Assembly (NCBI GenBank): GCA_944386495.1
Contig: CALXBE010000009.1
Coordinates: forward strand, 17,500 to 81,499
Length of the DNA stretch: 64,000 nucleotides
Direction of reading: 5' to 3'
Source: an uncultured Gemmiger sp.
GTDB taxonomy: Bacteria; Bacillota; Clostridia; Oscillospirales; Ruminococcaceae
The translations under genes and the position numbers were made by a program. Below, piece after piece: positions 3,434 to 58,135 of the stretch (positions within the stretch are counted from its first letter, which is position 1; every line of letters starts with the position of its first letter). The notes beneath the pieces were generated by a model that saw only the letters and a program-made list of their open reading frames with translations, had not been told where the DNA came from and did no database searches.

Positions 3434-4300
3434 ATGAAAAAGCTGATTTGCCTGCTGCTTGCCCTGTCCATGACCGCCCTGCTTCTGGCAGGCTGCGGCT
3501 CTGCTCCTGCTGCCACTGATGAAACCGGAGACGCCGCCGATACTGCCGCCGCAGATAACGGGGCAAACGAAGGCTCTGCCGAGGGTTCTGCCCAGAGCGA
3601 TATGGCCTATGTCCAGGAAAAAGGTGTTCTGGTAGTAGGTATTACCGAATTCGAGCCCATGGACTACAAGGATGCCGACGGCAACTGGATTGGATTTGAT
3701 GCCGACATGGCCAAAGCCTTTGCTGAGAGCCTGGGCGTTGAGGTAGAATTTACCGTCATCGACTGGGACAACAAGATTCTGGAGCTGGACGGCAAGACCA
3801 TTGACTGTGTCTGGAACGGCATGACCCTTACCGAGGATGTTCTGGCTGCCATGGAGTGCAGCAACGCCTACTGCAACAACGCTCAGGTGGTCATTGTTCC
3901 CGCTGACAAGGCTGACCAGTACCAGACCGTGGAGAGCCTGGCCGACCTGAACTTTGCCGTGGAAACCGGTTCTGCCGGAGAAGCTGAGGTTTCTGCCCTG
4001 AACCTTTCCTACACTCCTGTTGTGGACCAGGCCACCGCACTCATGGAAGTGGCTGCCGGCACCTGTGACGCCGCCGTTATCGACAGCCTGATGGCCGCCG
4101 CCATGGTAGGCGAAGGCACAGGCTACGCTGACCTGACCTATACGGTGGGCCTGAACAGTGAGGAGTACGGTGTAGGCTTCCGTAAGGGTTCTGATCTGGC
4201 CGAGGCTCTCAACCAGTTCTTTGCCTCCATCTACGCCGACGGGACCATGTCCTCTCTGGCCGAGACCTACGGTGTCCAGGCTGCTCTCATTGCGCAGTAA
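3434..4300 (+). CDS. Amino acid ABC transporter substrate-binding lipoprotein
   Basis: Extracellular binding protein (SBP family 3) of a polar amino acid importer. The signal peptide is typical of lipoproteins, ending in LLAGC with the acylated cysteine at residue 21, followed by a disordered Ala/Gly/Asp-rich linker to about residue 60. The ligand-binding core includes VGITEFEPMDYKDADGNWIGFDADMA-like family motifs. An in-frame ATG 24 bases upstream is rejected because AGGAAAC precedes this one and the signal sequence starts here. The ligand cannot be named with certainty. Confidence 0.93.
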   Translation: MKKLICLLLALSMTALLLAGCGSAPAATDETGDAADTAAADNGANEGSAEGSAQSDMAYVQEKGVLVVGITEFEPMDYKDADGNWIGFDADMAKAFAESLGVEVEFTVIDWDNKILELDGKTIDCVWNGMTLTEDVLAAMECSNAYCNNAQVVIVPADKADQYQTVESLADLNFAVETGSAGEAEVSALNLSYTPVVDQATALMEVAAGTCDAAVIDSLMAAAMVGEGTGYADLTYTVGLNSEEYGVGFRKGSDLAEALNQFFASIYADGTMSSLAETYGVQAALIAQ

Positions 4301-14499: not shown

Positions 14500-14672
14500 T
14501 AAAAAGATTCCTCTTTCCCACTGTCCTGAAGGGTTCTGTCAGGTCATTACTGCCCTGGTTTGCCCTTCGTTCACGACCGCTTCAGTGGATGGCCGGGGAG
14601 TATCCGCCGAACTTTCGATTGTCTCCCACCTCGTCACCCCGGCAGTACGCAGCTGTTCCGGGGTCTGGCGCT
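14500..14672 (-). ncRNA. glmS ribozyme/riboswitch
   Basis: Glucosamine-6-phosphate-dependent self-cleaving RNA in the glmS leader. Reading the minus strand, the conserved core is clear: AAGCGCCAGA at the 5' end, then GACGAGGTGGGAGACAATCG, then TTCGGCGGATACTCCCCGG, matching the Firmicutes glmS ribozyme core. Cleavage is expected just before GCGCC, between 14672 and 14671. GlcN6P made by GlmS triggers cleavage and mRNA decay. The 3' boundary (P3/P4 region) is approximate. Confidence 0.93.
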
Positions 14673-14699
14673 TATTCGTTTTTCTGATTTTCCTCCTTA

Positions 14700-19357: not shown

Positions 19358-20863
19358 TTAGTTGGCGCCCTGGCTGTTCTTGAGGATAACATCATGGCTG
19401 CCGCCCTCCACGATACTGGTGGAGGAAACCACGGTCAGGCGGGCCTTCTCCTGCAGTTCAGGAATGGAGAGAGCGCCGCAGTTGCACATGGTGCTCTTGA
19501 CCTTGTACAGGGTAATATTTACGCCGTCGGCCAGAGGTCCGGCGTAAGGCACATAGCTGTCTACGCCTTCTTCAAAGCTCAGCTTGGAGGCGCCGCCCAG
19601 GTCGTACCGCTGCCAGTTCCGGGCACGGTTGCTTCCCTCGCCCCAGTACTCCTTCACATAGTTGCCGTTGATACGCAGCTTGTTGGTGGGGCTTTCATCG
19701 AACCGGGCAAAGTAGCGGCCCAGCATGACGAAGTCAGCGCCCATGGCCAGGGCCAGGGTAATATGATAGTCGTGAACGATACCGCCGTCGGAGCAGATGG
19801 GCACATAAATGCCGGTCTCCTTGTAGTACTCGTCCCGGGCCTTGGCTACCTCAATAACGGCAGTGGCCTGTCCACGGCCAATACCCTTGGTCTCACGGGT
19901 AATGCAGATGGAACCGCCGCCAATGCCGATCTTGACAAAGTCAGCACCGGCCTTGGCCAGGAAACGGAATCCGTCCCGGTCCACCACATTGCCGGCACCT
20001 ACCTTGACGGTATCGCCGTAATGCTCCCGAATCCAGGAGATGGTCCGGCTCTGCCACTCGCTGAAGCCCTCGGAGGAGTCAATGCAGAGCACATCGGCGC
20101 CGGCTTCCACCAGAGCGGGAACACGCTTTGCGTAGTCACGGGTATTGATACCGGCGCCTACCACATAGCTCTTGTTGGCATCCAGCAGCTCGTTGACAAA
20201 TTCCTTGTGGCTGTCGTAGTCCTTCCGGAATACCAGATACTGGAGATGTCCATCCTTATCCACCAGGGGCAGGCTGTTGATCTTATTGTCCCAGATAATG
20301 TCGTTGGCTTCCTTCAGGGTAGTGGTATCAGGGGCAACCACCAGTTTCTCCAGGGGAGTCATAAACTCGCTGACGGGAGTCTCCACGCTCATCCGGCTGA
20401 CCCGGTAATCCCGGCTGGCTACAATGCCCAGCAGTTTGCCGTGGGCAGTGCCGTCGTGGGTGATAGCCACAGTGGAGTGACCGGTGGTAGCTTTCAGTTC
20501 CAGAACATCGGCCAGGGTTGCCTCAGGGCAAAGGTTGCACTTGCTGGTGACAAAGCCCTTCTTATAGCTCTTTACCCGGGCTACCATTGCGGCTTCGTCC
20601 TCAACGGTCTGGTTGCCGTAAATGAAGGACACGCCGCCCTGCTTGGCCAAGGCAATGGCCAGGTTATCCCCGGACACAGACTGCATGATGGCGCTGACCA
20701 TGGGAATGTTCATGGTGAGAGGGCACTCTTCCTGGCCCTTTCTGTACTTGACCAAAGGAGTTTTCAGACTGACAGCGTCCGGCACACATTCTGAGGAAGA
20801 ATAACCAGGGACCAACAGATACTCTCCAAAAGTGCGGCTGGGCTCGGTAAAATAAGTAGCCAT
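19358..20863 (-). CDS. guaB: IMP dehydrogenase
   Basis: Oxidises IMP to XMP, the rate-limiting step of GMP synthesis. The 501-residue protein has the TIM barrel interrupted by paired CBS domains (about 95-225). The catalytic loop reads [18 protein letters not shown], containing the cysteine that attacks C2 of IMP, and the flap has [14 protein letters not shown]. The loop and the N-terminus ([20 protein letters not shown]) are of the divergent IMPDH group found in some Clostridia and protists rather than the E. coli type. GGAG precedes the ATG. Confidence 0.95.
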
Positions 20864-20908
20864 AACATATCTCCTTTTCTTGTAACAGGTATGTGATTTT
20901 TGTTTACC

Positions 20909-20937
20909 ATTTTAGCACAGAACCCGCCAAAAGACAA
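20909..20937 (-). promoter_or_regulatory. Promoter of guaB
   Basis: TTGTCT, 17 bases, TAAAAT on the minus strand. The leader is only about 40 bases, so no purine riboswitch is present. Confidence 0.6.
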
Positions 20938-20967
20938 AGCCTTTCCCTGCCAAACTTTTCTTTTTTA

Positions 20968-21066
20968 TTTTGTGGAAAAAGTGGCATTTTCACAACAACT
21001 GCTCCTGATTAGTAGTACTTTCCCGAAAGGCGGTTTCTTTCCCCATAAAATTTCTTTTCCACAAAA
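20968..21066. repeat. Inverted repeat TTTTGTGGAAAA / TTTTCCACAAAA
   Basis: Perfect 12-base arms at 20968-20979 and 21055-21066, enclosing 75 AT-rich bases in the spacer upstream of guaB. Each arm contains TTTTCCACA, one base off the DnaA box. Possible protein-binding pair or cruciform; nothing else in this part of the spacer looks like a gene. Confidence 0.6.
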
Positions 21067-21094
21067 ATTTTACATATTTTTCCCCAACTTTCTA

Positions 21095-21123
21095 TTGACA
21101 AGTTATTTCAATTTGGTTACAAT
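21095..21123 (+). promoter_or_regulatory. Promoter of the candidate small RNA
   Basis: Consensus TTGACA, 17 bases, TACAAT. The 10-mer TTGGTTACAA covers the -10 (21113-21122) and recurs at 21135-21144, a 22-base period, which could be an operator pair. Confidence 0.7.
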
Positions 21124-21129
21124 TTAATT

Positions 21130-21276
21130 GCAGGTTGGTTACAAACTTTTTTCATGTGTTTCCTTTCATAACATTGGGCATCCGCAGTTTTCCAAAACGG
21201 CCCAACTCCTGTCCTCCTTTGCAGGAGTGCGGAAAAAGATTAGAGCTTTGCTTTTTGGCAAGGCTCTTTCTTTTTA
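21130..21276 (+). ncRNA. Candidate small RNA with anti-Shine-Dalgarno loop
   Basis: A promoter-to-terminator unit of about 145 bases with no reading frame. Stem 1: TTGGGC (21174-21179) with GCCCAA (21200-21205), capped by GTTT/AAAC. Stem 2: ACTCCTG (21205-21211) with CAGGAGT (21222-21228), loop TCCTCCTTTG, which equals the anti-Shine-Dalgarno end of 16S rRNA. TCCGC (21181-21185) can pair with GCGGA (21229-21233) as a pseudoknot. It ends in a ten-base-pair terminator (21242-21267) with TTCTTTTT. It does not resemble SRP RNA, tmRNA or RNase P RNA; 6S RNA cannot be excluded. Confidence 0.65.
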
Positions 21277-21289
21277 TCCTATATAAATA

Positions 21290-21322
21290 AAAGAAAGGGG
21301 ACGGCCCTTTTCAGGCTGTCCC
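21290..21322 (-). terminator. Terminator of the ATP-grasp/GH13/lipoprotein operon
   Basis: GGGACAGCC / GGGCCGTCCC on the minus strand, followed by CTTTCTTTTATTT. Confidence 0.75.
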
Positions 21323-21335
21323 ATTTTGCTGTATC

Positions 21336-21818
21336 TTATTGCCGGCCAGCGGGAGTGACCTCGGTCACATCCATCTTTAGCCGGTAGGTGTGGGGGGTTC
21401 CGTCTTTCTGAATCACTTCCAGTTCAAAATAGAGCTGATCCGTCCAGCCCTCTTTCAAGCTGAGGAAAGAGCCTTTTTCTCCCCACATCTTGCCCAGATC
21501 TCCATTTGCCTTTATTGATTCTCCCGTCTGGTCCACCACCGCATTTTGGGTGATCACGCTTTCCTCCAAACCATCGACCCAGTAATAGGTCGTAGTGAAT
21601 TCGGCAATTTCTTCCGGGAATCCTTCCAGGGTTTTGAGCTCTCCGCCGCAGAAGATGTCCTGCTCCTCGCTCTGGACGATGACCCCATTGGAGACAGAAA
21701 AGAGAGTGTCTTCCCCGTGGAAGGAGTAGACCCGCAGGGGTTCCTGCTCTTTGGTCTGGCATCCTGCCAGGGCCAGGAGAAAAATGAGAGCCAAAGCCAG
21801 TTTTTTGAATTTACTCAT
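21336..21818 (-). CDS. Small lipoprotein of unknown function
   Basis: A 160-residue exported protein. The signal peptide ends in LLALAGC with the acylated cysteine at residue 20. The mature part is mainly beta-type, with KTLEGFPEEIAEFTTTYYW and a C-terminal YRLKMDVTEVTP strand; no family is recognised. It starts seven bases after the GH13 stop and is the last gene of that operon. Confidence 0.75.
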   Translation of the reverse strand: MSKFKKLALALIFLLALAGCQTKEQEPLRVYSFHGEDTLFSVSNGVIVQSEEQDIFCGGELKTLEGFPEEIAEFTTTYYWVDGLEESVITQNAVVDQTGESIKANGDLGKMWGEKGSFLSLKEGWTDQLYFELEVIQKDGTPHTYRLKMDVTEVTPAGRQ

Positions 21819-39907: not shown

Positions 39908-39981
39908 GGCACCCCCTGGGGGAATCGAACCCTCAACTAGCCCTTAGGAGGGGCTTGTTATATCCATTTAACTAAGGAGGC
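39907..39981 (-). tRNA. tRNA-Arg (anticodon CCU)
   Basis: Acceptor GCCTCCT with AGGGGGT, anticodon stem AGCCC/GGGCT with loop CTCCTAA giving CCU, T-arm with GGTTCGATTCC, discriminator G and encoded CCA. Reads AGG. Confidence 0.95.
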
Positions 39982-55615: not shown

Positions 55616-58135
55616 ATGAAGCTGCTGGTTTTGGACGGCAACAGTATCGTCAACCGTGCCTACTACGGCATCAAGCTGCTGACCACCAAGGACGGAATCT
55701 ACACCAACGGAATCTTTGGATTTCTCAATATACTGAATACCCTGCTGCGGGACTACCAGCCCGACGAGGTAGCCATTGCCTTTGATGTAAAGCAGCCCAC
55801 CTTCCGCCATAAAATGTATGACGGCTACAAAGCCACCCGGCACGGGATGCCCCAGGAACTGGCCCAGCAGATGCCCATTCTGAAAGAACTTTTGGAGGAC
55901 CTGGGCTTTGTGCTGGTGGAATGCCCCGGCTGGGAAGCCGATGATATTCTGGGCACCCTGGCTGCCGCCTGCGCCGCCCGGAAGGATGACTGCCTTCTCT
56001 CCACCGGAGACCGGGACAGCCTCCAGCTGGTAAGCGACACCACCACTGTTCTGCTGGCCAGCACCCGGATGGGAAAGAGTGAGACGGTGGTCATGGATGT
56101 GGATGCCGTTCAGGAAAAATACGGCCTGTCCCCCAAACAGCTCATTGATGTAAAAAGCCTCATGGGAGACACCAGCGACAATATTCCCGGTGTGGCCGGA
56201 ATCGGAGAAAAGACTGCCCTCTCCCTTATCCAGAAGTTCGGCAGTCTGGACGGAGTATATGCCCATCTGGAGGATTCCTTTATCAAGCCCGGCCAGCGGG
56301 CCAAGCTGACTGCCGGGGAGGAAAGTGCCCGGCTCAGCTATACTTTGGGAACCATCGCCACCGATGCTCCCATTCCCACCCAGGAGGGCAGTTATCTCCG
56401 CCGACCCGGCAACCCTGCCGCAGCCGCCCAGCTGCTGGCCCGGCTGGAAATGCACACCATGGTCACCCGGTGGGGTCTGGACCAGGAGGCTGCTTCCCTG
56501 CCCCAGGACCAGGAGGAAGAACTGCCCCATGTGTCCTGCTGCACCCTGAATTCTTTCCAGGGGGAGTGGTGCCTGGCCCGGCAGGATGACCGGTGGTTTG
56601 CCGTCCAGGGTCAGACCCTGGTGGCACTGGGCCGGGATTGTCTCCCTGCTCTCCTGGACAGTTCCTGCAAGCTGCGGGTGTTTGATTCCAAGCCACTTTA
56701 CCGGATGGCTTTGGAGGCCGGCGGCATTGGCGAGAGCATTATCTTTGACGGAAAGCTGGCCGCCTACCTGCTCAACCCCAGCGCCGCCGGGTATCAGCCC
56801 GACCAGCTGGCCGCGGAGTACGGGGTCAAGGCCCGGTTTGTCTCGGAGGAATACCCTCTGGCCGGGTGCCTGGAAGAACTTTTGGATGTGCTGGATTCCA
56901 AGCTGAAGGAATGCGGCATGGAGGAACTTCTCCACACCATCGAACTTCCCCTGGCCCGGGTCCTGGCCGATATGGAGCGGCTGGGCTTCCTGGTGGATGC
57001 CCAGGGCATCCGGGATTTCGGGAAGGTGCTGGAAGGAGAGATTCAGGCCAGCCTGGACCGAATCTACCAGGCTGTGGGATATTCCTTCAATGTGAACAGT
57101 CCCATTCATCTGGGCAAGGCCCTGTTTGAAGATTTGGGGCTGCCGCCCCGGAAAAAGACCAAGCGGGGGTACAGCACCGATGCCGAGACCTTGGAAAGCC
57201 TCCTCCCCTACAGTCAGGTGGTGGAGGACATTCTCCATTACCGGGCCTGCGCCAAACTGAACAGCACCTATGTGGAGGGGCTGTTGAAGCAGATCGAGCC
57301 GGACGGACGGGTCCACAGTGAATTCATCCAGACCGAGACCCGCACCGGCCGTATCAGCAGCATCGAACCCAACCTGCAGAACATCCCCATCCGGACTCCC
57401 CTGGGCAGTCAGATGCGGGGATTCTTCCTGGCCCGGGAAGGCTGTCTCCTGGCCGATGCAGACTACAGCCAGATCGAGCTTCGCATTCTGGCCCATGTAA
57501 GCGGGGACGAGAGCATGCGGCAGGCCTTTTTGTCCGGAGCGGACATTCACCGGAGCACCGCCGCCAAGATTTACCATATTCCTCCCGAGGAGGTCACTCC
57601 TGACCTCCGTTCGGGGGCCAAGGCCATCAACTTCGGAATCATGTACGGAAAAGGCGCATTCAGCCTGTCCAAGGACCTGAATGTTTCGGTGAAGGAAGCG
57701 GATGCCTTCTTGAAGGAGTATCTGGCCACCTTCCCCCGGATCGATGCCTATATGAACGAGACCATCCAGCAGGGCCGGGAGCAGGGATATGTTTCCACCC
57801 TGTTCGGCCGGAGACGGTATCTTCCCGAACTGACCAGCAAGAACTTCCAGGTCCGTTCCAGCGGGGAGCGGATGGCCCGGAACACCCCCATCCAGGGAAC
57901 CGCCGCCGACATTATCAAGCTGGCCATGGTCCGGGTCTGGGAGCGGCTGCGCCGGGAAAAGCTGGAAGCACGGCTTATCCTTCAGGTCCACGACGAACTG
58001 ATCGTGGAAGCCCCCGAAGCTGAGGTGGAACAGGTTGCCCGAATCCTCCAGGAGGAAATGCAGGGAGCGGTGGAGTTCTCTGTTCCCCTGACCGTGGATG
58101 TCCATACCGGGAAAACCTGGAAGGAGGCCCACTGA
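55616..58135 (+). CDS. polA: DNA polymerase I
   Basis: Repair and Okazaki-fragment polymerase. 839 residues: 5'-nuclease domain (1-290; GNSIVNRAYYG, STGDRDSLQLV, GDTSDNIPGV), a reduced middle domain (about 300-460) without the DEDD proofreading residues, and the polymerase domain with motif A DADYSQIELRILAH, motif B RSGAKAINFGIMYG and motif C QVHDELIVE. Loss of proofreading is usual in Firmicutes Pol I. The rimI start shares one base with its stop. Confidence 0.97.
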   Translation: MKLLVLDGNSIVNRAYYGIKLLTTKDGIYTNGIFGFLNILNTLLRDYQPDEVAIAFDVKQPTFRHKMYDGYKATRHGMPQELAQQMPILKELLEDLGFVLVECPGWEADDILGTLAAACAARKDDCLLSTGDRDSLQLVSDTTTVLLASTRMGKSETVVMDVDAVQEKYGLSPKQLIDVKSLMGDTSDNIPGVAGIGEKTALSLIQKFGSLDGVYAHLEDSFIKPGQRAKLTAGEESARLSYTLGTIATDAPIPTQEGSYLRRPGNPAAAAQLLARLEMHTMVTRWGLDQEAASLPQDQEEELPHVSCCTLNSFQGEWCLARQDDRWFAVQGQTLVALGRDCLPALLDSSCKLRVFDSKPLYRMALEAGGIGESIIFDGKLAAYLLNPSAAGYQPDQLAAEYGVKARFVSEEYPLAGCLEELLDVLDSKLKECGMEELLHTIELPLARVLADMERLGFLVDAQGIRDFGKVLEGEIQASLDRIYQAVGYSFNVNSPIHLGKALFEDLGLPPRKKTKRGYSTDAETLESLLPYSQVVEDILHYRACAKLNSTYVEGLLKQIEPDGRVHSEFIQTETRTGRISSIEPNLQNIPIRTPLGSQMRGFFLAREGCLLADADYSQIELRILAHVSGDESMRQAFLSGADIHRSTAAKIYHIPPEEVTPDLRSGAKAINFGIMYGKGAFSLSKDLNVSVKEADAFLKEYLATFPRIDAYMNETIQQGREQGYVSTLFGRRRYLPELTSKNFQVRSSGERMARNTPIQGTAADIIKLAMVRVWERLRREKLEARLILQVHDELIVEAPEAEVEQVARILQEEMQGAVEFSVPLTVDVHTGKTWKEAH

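Follow-up and report, generated by a model that had tools for sequence, protein, structure and literature searches.

RESULTS

A predicted sRNA gene next to guaB

What does the segment at 21095-21276 (+) of the window encode, the window being the whole 64,000-nt stretch of uncultured Gemmiger DNA that was analysed? An initial annotation, made from the letters alone, described it as a candidate small RNA (sRNA) gene whose loop copies the 3′ end of 16S rRNA and could pair with the Shine-Dalgarno (SD) sequence of many mRNAs. The observation itself was confirmed. The core promoter (21095-21123, +) consists of TTGACA (21095-21100) and TACAAT (21118-21123) separated by 17 nt and, as had been claimed, is close to consensus, with 11 of 12 letters; three promoter-like sites were found in 20800-21400 where 0.8 were expected. 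Promoter, fold and terminator predict an RNA of about 146 nt (21131-21276, +), with a start at about 21130-21131. Folding of 21131-21280 gave a z score of -3.2, and none of 200 dinucleotide shuffles was equally stable. The two stems described are hairpin 1 (TTGGGC/GCCCAA, 21174-21205, +) and hairpin 2 (CTCCTG/CAGGAG, 21206-21227, +). The intrinsic terminator (21242-21276, +) was likewise present, with a stem of 11 pairs at 21242-21267 followed by a T-run. The statement that the transcript holds no reading frame was too broad, since a pair of ORFs with TTG starts, 51-52 aa long, overlaps the transcript, while the gaps of one and four bases that a third species shows relative to the window sequence agree with it.

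The gene was found in the two other genomes of the window genus that were searched, with 98% and 82% identity. Both hairpins are kept in these relatives, and hairpin 2 has one change on both sides, from U-A to C-G. The terminator stem is also kept within the genus, with one-sided changes. Support for the pseudoknot proposed earlier (TCCGCA 21181-21186 with TGCGGA 21228-21233; 21181-21233, +) is weak: four of its six pairs are kept in all three species and the other two are not. The 3′ end of 16S rRNA reads ...CACCUCCUUU..., and the loop of hairpin 2, TCCTCCTTT (21212-21220), matches it in eight of nine letters rather than in all nine; when the transcript was dinucleotide-shuffled 3000 times, 0.4% of the shuffles contained this 9-mer. 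In the third species the loop reads UCCUUCUUU (UCCUUC), so the loop is not the part that is kept best. The first 38 bases of the RNA (21131-21168), on the other hand, are identical in all three species. They include a single-stranded seed, CUUUUUUCAUGUGUUUCCUUUCA (21146-21168, +), complementary to SD-spacer-AUG-AAA-AAA-G. Because these 5′ bases are unchanged while the loop differs in one species, we take the seed and not the loop to be the core of the window sRNA, namely the 5′ single strand CUUUUUUCAUG(UGUUUCC), which is complementary to SD-AUG-AAA-AAR.

The divergent neighbour guaB (IMP dehydrogenase, 19358-20863, -) points away from the sRNA and a small lipoprotein-like ORF (21336-21818, -) points toward it, which makes the sRNA a stand-alone unit; as the ORF is convergent, the sRNA does not act here as a leader for any gene downstream. 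A housekeeping RNA such as 6S, for which a covariance check had been proposed, was not found. No Rfam family reached its gathering score at the window sRNA or at the sRNA in 16 relative loci, and of the 18 permissive matches at the window sRNA up to E 10, none came near its own gathering score. Neither the window sRNA nor the 16 relative loci gave a 6S model match, and no long open-bubble hairpin was seen. The window sRNA is therefore not filed as 6S, and we rejected 6S and any other known Rfam family. Elsewhere in the window there are a glmS ribozyme/riboswitch at 14517-14683 (-; 81 bits) and a tRNA gene at 39910-39981 (-).

The sRNA family and its distribution

The sRNA belongs to a family of 29 distinct loci, derived from 57 pattern-matching loci, and four more genomes reached via guaB, in Gemmiger, Fournierella, Anaerofilum and relatives. 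With up to three mismatches, a promoter/5′ pattern matched 37 of 297 same-family genomes, 29 of these at zero or one mismatch; its reversed control matched four of the 297. Those matches at two or three mismatches that were read lacked the sRNA anatomy. The scan of named genomes gave 27 loci, which lie in Gemmiger, Fournierella, Anaerofilum, the MAG Faecalibacterium sp. UBA7177, a Ruminococcaceae isolate and other Oscillospiraceae or Clostridia. When 100 relatives were searched, another seven genomes of the same family (L004-L010) gave a match that ran from the promoter to about base 30 of the transcript and no further; two other matches (L011, L012) are not the sRNA but something else.

The initial annotation had suggested a comparison of guaB upstream regions in related genomes. 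Among 20 genomes read, six carried the sRNA there (L211, L212, L214, L215, L216, L224), four of them genomes missed by the pattern and two (G033, G182) already matched. It was not seen upstream of guaB in the other 14; L213 (G049) carries it elsewhere. Across the family, 24 of 29 loci have a guaB-region cluster no more than about 3.5 kb away from the sRNA; both orientations occur and the spacing varies. A sequence-only model of promoter and seed matched in 23 of 394 genomes of the order, three strongly, a lower bound given its stricter filters. One match (L137 in G122) is a real homologue that adjoins guaB; the other weak matches that were read proved for the most part to be TTACAA-N5-TTACAA arrays lacking the sRNA. 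The family seems confined to one clade, as judged with filters strict enough to give a lower bound. Among the papers listed from the searchable part of the literature, which lacks most subscription papers, no regulatory RNA with a proposed role was found for Gemmiger, Fournierella or Anaerofilum, and we found there no earlier description of this conserved sRNA gene family. We regard the computational evidence for the gene and its structure as good.

Structure of the RNA across the family

All 29 members have UUUUUCAUG near the 5′ end; it was part of the scan pattern. UCCUCC occurs in 28 of the 29 distinct loci, compared with 3.7 expected from shuffles. Among 28 sequences, the mean unpaired probability was 0.92 for the best UCCUCC copy, 0.57 for the seed and 0.43 for whole transcripts. 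Several members have a further CU-rich segment (CUCCU) near the 3′ end. The family thus has a conserved unpaired C-rich motif complementary to the SD, the feature of C-rich SD-blocking sRNAs.

Two forms of the RNA were seen. In the long form, a long covarying stem has an asymmetric bulge whose 5′ strand holds UCUCCUCCU, adjoining an inner hairpin; the sequence of the stem arms differs between members while their pairing is kept. In ten long-form members (alignment A4), 12 of 20 pairs changed on both sides, and the covariation score was reached by none of 500 shuffles. In the same ten, 86.4% of cells were paired compared with 29-48% in slid controls, a comparison that favours the structure because it was taken from one of the ten. 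The short form (L044, L048, L050, L055 and L060; 87-88 nt) has the seed, UCUCCUCCU and the terminator hairpin only, so the pairing sequences persist where the stem is gone. Transcript lengths exclude L046 and L065, whose ends had been called wrongly. In the window genus the UCCUCC motif is found in the loop of hairpin 2, not in a stem bulge.

An array of promoter boxes

The promoter region contains five boxes, one every 11 bp (21095-21144, +): TTGACA at 21095, TTTCAA at 21106, TTACAA at 21117, TTGCAG at 21128 and TTACAA at 21139. Boxes 3-5 belonged to the scan pattern, whereas boxes 1 and 2 did not. TTGACA with the 17-nt spacer is nevertheless present in 29 of 29 distinct loci, the -35 being outside the pattern, and box 2 (NNTCAA), also outside it, has TCAA in 26 of 29. 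The family consensus is TTGACA-N5-NNTCAA-N5-TTACAA-N5-TTGCAA-N5-TTACA, and in most members the complement reads TGTAAC-N5-TGCAAC-N5-TGTAAC, an 11-bp head-to-tail arrangement.

Head-to-tail repeats of the 11-bp type are typical of OmpR/PhoB-type regulators. In the available part of PMC9210968, the consensus of WalR (YycF) is given as TGTWAH-N5-TGTWAH, and going by that text the sRNA boxes are alike in their 11-bp head-to-tail TGTAAC-type repeats: the outer boxes fit, and the middle TGCAAC is off at one position. The sRNA array differs from what is given there in having five boxes, which run from the -35 to about +14. We consider that the array is probably bound by an OmpR/PhoB-type, WalR-like regulator, an identity suggested by the resemblance of the boxes. 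Since the boxes overlap the -35, the -10 and the start, repression would fit.

Similar arrays were also seen away from the sRNA. In genus g16 (G243, G557; L133, L135, L154, L156, L158 and L159) there are several TTACAA-N5-TTACAA-like arrays per genome, with up to five matches in one genome, apparently WalR/PhoB-type operators. A TTACAA array at L134 lies upstream of an exported protein that by eye resembles a cell-wall protein with SH3 repeats, as would be in keeping with a WalR regulon. Promoters of the TTGACA...GTTACAA type with more TTACAA boxes (L136, L141, L144, L145, L147, L152) precede a conserved, YKGHPLRRKDNLIYYG-like protein of about 100 aa that occurs in several families of the order.

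Predicted targets

Within the window, the predicted target is a gene at 3434-4300 (+) for an amino-acid ABC transporter substrate-binding lipoprotein (SBP_bac_3; PF00497, E 3.7e-29), with the start region GAGGAAACACCC/ATGAAAAAGC. It ranked second by duplex energy among the 59 called window genes, and none of 500 shuffled seeds did as well. The first-ranked gene, at 58135, has a start that we judge doubtful.

Motif searches in the three window-genus genomes pointed to the same class. The pattern AGG + 3-9 nt + ATGAAAAAA gave 65 matches, of which three are the sRNA's own complement; nine of the other 62 were not included. Many of the genes behind these matches encode substrate-binding lipoproteins, and a Pfam scan of 10 of the proteins identified seven binding proteins (the families being ABC_sub_bind, SBP_bac_1, SBP_bac_3 and DctP). 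Among 45 distinct genes of the window genus that start with MKK and encode at least 50 aa, the 19 with a lipobox gave better pairing with the seed's upstream half than did the remaining 26 (P = 0.004; 4 of 1000 shuffled seeds did equally well), with the lipobox defined by a simple motif and orthologues counted separately.

We also searched for AGGAAACA-N0-4-ATGAAAAA outside the sRNA locus. There were seven matches in the three window-genus genomes and 17 in 29 other carriers, compared with 10 in 32 genomes in which the sRNA was not found. Binding-protein-like genes made up 12 of the 24 carrier matches and none of the other 10. Ten of the 12 were assigned by Pfam and one (L241, not scanned) by orthology, while L246 is a 66-aa frame without a Pfam match; the Fisher P value was 0.005 with all 12 and, calculated by hand, 0.009 with the 11 left when the short frame is omitted. 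With one mismatch allowed, SD-N7-ACATGAAAAARG gave 1-9 matches per genome in 17 of 18 carriers, and 9 of the 24 genes listed look by eye like binding lipoproteins. Used as a long antisense, the Anaerofilum seed found no good mRNA match in Anaerofilum, its only zero-mismatch matches being the sRNA genes themselves; a single mRNA with an exact long antisense match was accordingly dropped as a candidate there. As a separate observation, G037:C7 and G023:C212 hold open frames 1284-1287 aa long in which four SBP_bac_3 domains follow one another.

Binding-protein starts in carriers and non-carriers

In order to compare the start regions of SBP_bac_3 genes, 16 carriers and 16 non-carriers were used, and multi-domain repeats were excluded along with frames containing stops. 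Of the 71 genes that were given a start, seven were dropped, four for a wrong start or none (L280, L285, L317, L318) and three for lack of a lipobox (L311, L313, L314). With the window seed, the mean duplex energy was -19.9 kcal/mol in carriers (37 genes) and -14.8 kcal/mol in non-carriers (27 genes; P = 2e-8). The effect was also seen after shuffled-seed correction (P = 6e-7), with genus means (9 versus 10; P = 0.0002), with ATGAAAAA starts only (27 versus 15; P = 2e-6), with only the region upstream of the ATG (P = 0.00015) and with no rows dropped (43 versus 28; P = 1e-7). Response-regulator genes (Response_reg), used as a control, came from 10 carriers and 8 non-carriers. Of the 70 fetched, 68 had a usable start, and these showed no carrier effect (37 versus 31 genes; P = 0.61). 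The class-by-carrier interaction was equalled in 2 of 5000 permutations, which ignore phylogeny.

Several points limit the weight of this difference. The seeds of other members were weaker, the interaction being equalled in 49 of 5000 permutations for L051 and 604 of 5000 for L044, and the seeds of L062 and L063 showed no carrier effect in the shuffle-corrected score (P = 0.30 and 0.72). Part of the match is general, since non-carriers too showed better pairing for binding-protein starts than for those of response regulators (P = 6.7e-5). The carriers form one clade, so they do not provide a fully independent comparison, and they have more C and GC in their start regions. Non-carrier status came from the promoter/5′ pattern, which four carriers escaped until guaB led to them, and the guaB upstream region was read in 6 of the 16 non-carriers; any wrong assignment among these would make the observed difference smaller. 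We regard the computational evidence for the target class as moderate.

DISCUSSION

Proposed mode of action

Computation establishes a conserved gene, its structure, its promoter array and its complementarity to start regions, with the statistics given above. Our joint reading, to which we assign a probability of roughly two in three, is that the RNA is a trans-acting antisense sRNA that mirrors SD-spacer-AUG AAA AAR and would block translation initiation on the mRNAs of transporter binding proteins. Such an mRNA start is mirrored jointly by the 5′ single strand CUUUUUUCAUGUGUUUCC and the exposed UCCUCC. Pairing with the target mRNA would cover its SD and start codon, and 30S subunits would be kept off. 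The main targets would be substrate-binding lipoproteins of ABC and TRAP transporters, and the sRNA would then lower the amount of nutrient-binding proteins at the cell surface. The 11-bp TTRCAA-like boxes at the promoter suggest that a response regulator that binds head-to-tail, WalR-like by box resemblance, probably sets the level of the sRNA. Transcription, pairing and repression in the cell and the action of this regulator are what we infer from the computed features.

The sRNA would probably act without Hfq. An Hfq model found no match in any of 12 carriers searched (three of the assemblies being 77-84% complete), while it was positive in 5 of 14 control genomes, namely E. coli, B. subtilis and three others. 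Since Hfq was not found in carriers and the model works in controls, the sRNA would pair on its own or with the help of a different chaperone.

A wider proposal is possible but less probable than its opposite. It holds that an Hfq-free sRNA reaches a whole class of exported proteins by way of the letters for their export signal, AUG-AAA-AAR (the Met-Lys-Lys of lipoprotein signal peptides), together with a matching SD and spacer, that binding-protein starts evolved to stay in the regulon, and that an envelope-sensing response regulator acting on the sRNA promoter sets the amount of nutrient-binding protein. It suggests that the start codons of signal peptides may serve as a shared address for an sRNA.

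Other explanations

The initial interpretation is supported in so far as there is a structured sRNA gene that stands alone, exposes an anti-SD sequence and is kept by relatives; what needs revision is the breadth of targets through the loop. A generic anti-SD regulator would use its exposed UCCUCC to bind the SD of a wide range of unrelated mRNAs or to compete for 30S subunits, with a minor role for the 5′ segment; this is in our view unlikely, though likelier than the other alternatives. The near-universal, unpaired UCCUCC, the additional CU-rich segment near the 3′ end of several members and the weak or absent target signal of the L062 and L063 seeds all suit it. However, the window genus keeps the 5′ seed better than the loop, and with the window seed it is the starts of binding proteins, not those of response regulators, that track the presence of the sRNA. 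Because nearly every SD could pair with the loop by itself and the 5′ seed is better conserved, the targets are likely a class and not random mRNAs, and substrate-binding lipoprotein mRNAs are the likely class. A structural or protein-binding RNA, perhaps one that acts as a sponge for an RNA-binding protein, with only incidental complementarity to start sites, would account for the conserved stem with its bulge and for a long stem that otherwise lacks an explained function. Since the short form keeps only the seed, UCUCCUCCU and the terminator hairpin, we consider this very improbable.

We hold it to be just as improbable that the RNA is a cis-acting leader or attenuator of guaB, even with guaB nearby in most loci, mostly downstream and on the same strand. 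In the window genus and in L060 guaB runs in the opposite direction; where guaB is downstream, a terminator-like hairpin and, by eye, a promoter-like stretch lie between; in L059 the sRNA precedes another gene and the guaB of that genome is on another contig; and no Rfam match was found at the sRNA. Orientation and the terminator-like hairpins thus argue against a guaB leader or riboswitch. The remaining explanation, a short peptide gene on the opposite strand, arises because the complement of the seed resembles a real start site in many members. In the window the complement of 21146-21164 resembles a good translation start (AAAGGAAACAC ATG AAA AAA) that opens a 12-codon frame (MKK...), but relatives lack this frame. 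Frames range from 5 to 31 aa across the 29 loci, near-identical loci differ in theirs (MKKGV in L047, MKKGCNFLATKL in L056), and promoter and terminator face the other way. With a frame that is not conserved, this explanation was rejected and is the hardest of all to credit.

Comparison with known sRNAs

Rfam holds covariance models for LhrC and GcvB. The LhrC model was absent from the 18 matches up to E 10 at the window sRNA and from the gathering-score matches in the 16 relative loci; the GcvB model had no match at either. The model of RsaE scored 16.3 bits on the opposite strand, compared with a gathering score of 79.

GcvB is associated with Hfq and has GU-rich pairing letters in its R1 region. 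In enterobacteria it represses amino-acid and peptide transport mRNAs including oppA, according to the accessible text of PMC9988348. The likeness to the present sRNA lies in transport mRNAs as targets, which for our RNA are predicted from complementarity only. The differences are the pairing letters, a different phylum and the association of GcvB with Hfq, which was not found in 12 of 12 carriers searched.

The C-rich sRNAs of Gram-positive bacteria, RNAIII, RsaE, SprD and FsrA, block translation starts through the SD by a UCCC-type motif, as stated in the available part of PMC4132741. As far as that text describes them, the present sRNA differs in carrying UCCUCC in a bulge or loop in addition to an anti-start seed.

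LhrC1-5 of Listeria monocytogenes pair with the SD region through unpaired CU-rich motifs, and their known targets include oppA and tcsA, which encode surface proteins, OppA being a substrate-binding protein; Hfq is not required for the interaction with lapB mRNA, and LhrC is controlled by the two-component system LisRK (PMC4132741, PMC5880928, each in the portion available). Judged by those portions, the two are alike in having several exposed CU-rich motifs, which in our sRNA are the seed, UCCUCC and, in several members, the 3′ CUCCU. Unlike LhrC, which has several copies per genome, the present sRNA gave one pattern match per genome (29 genomes, zero or one mismatch, a search that could miss diverged copies), its pairing would cover the start codon and lysine codons besides the SD, and structure, promoter boxes and host are different.

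We liken the mode of action proposed here to those of GcvB and LhrC; membership in either family is not supported, as no covariance match was found. If our reading is true, these gut bacteria would have a conserved sRNA with predicted, testable targets that controls nutrient uptake, and these hosts, in which Hfq was not found, would provide another independent case, beside GcvB and LhrC, of convergence on transporter binding proteins.
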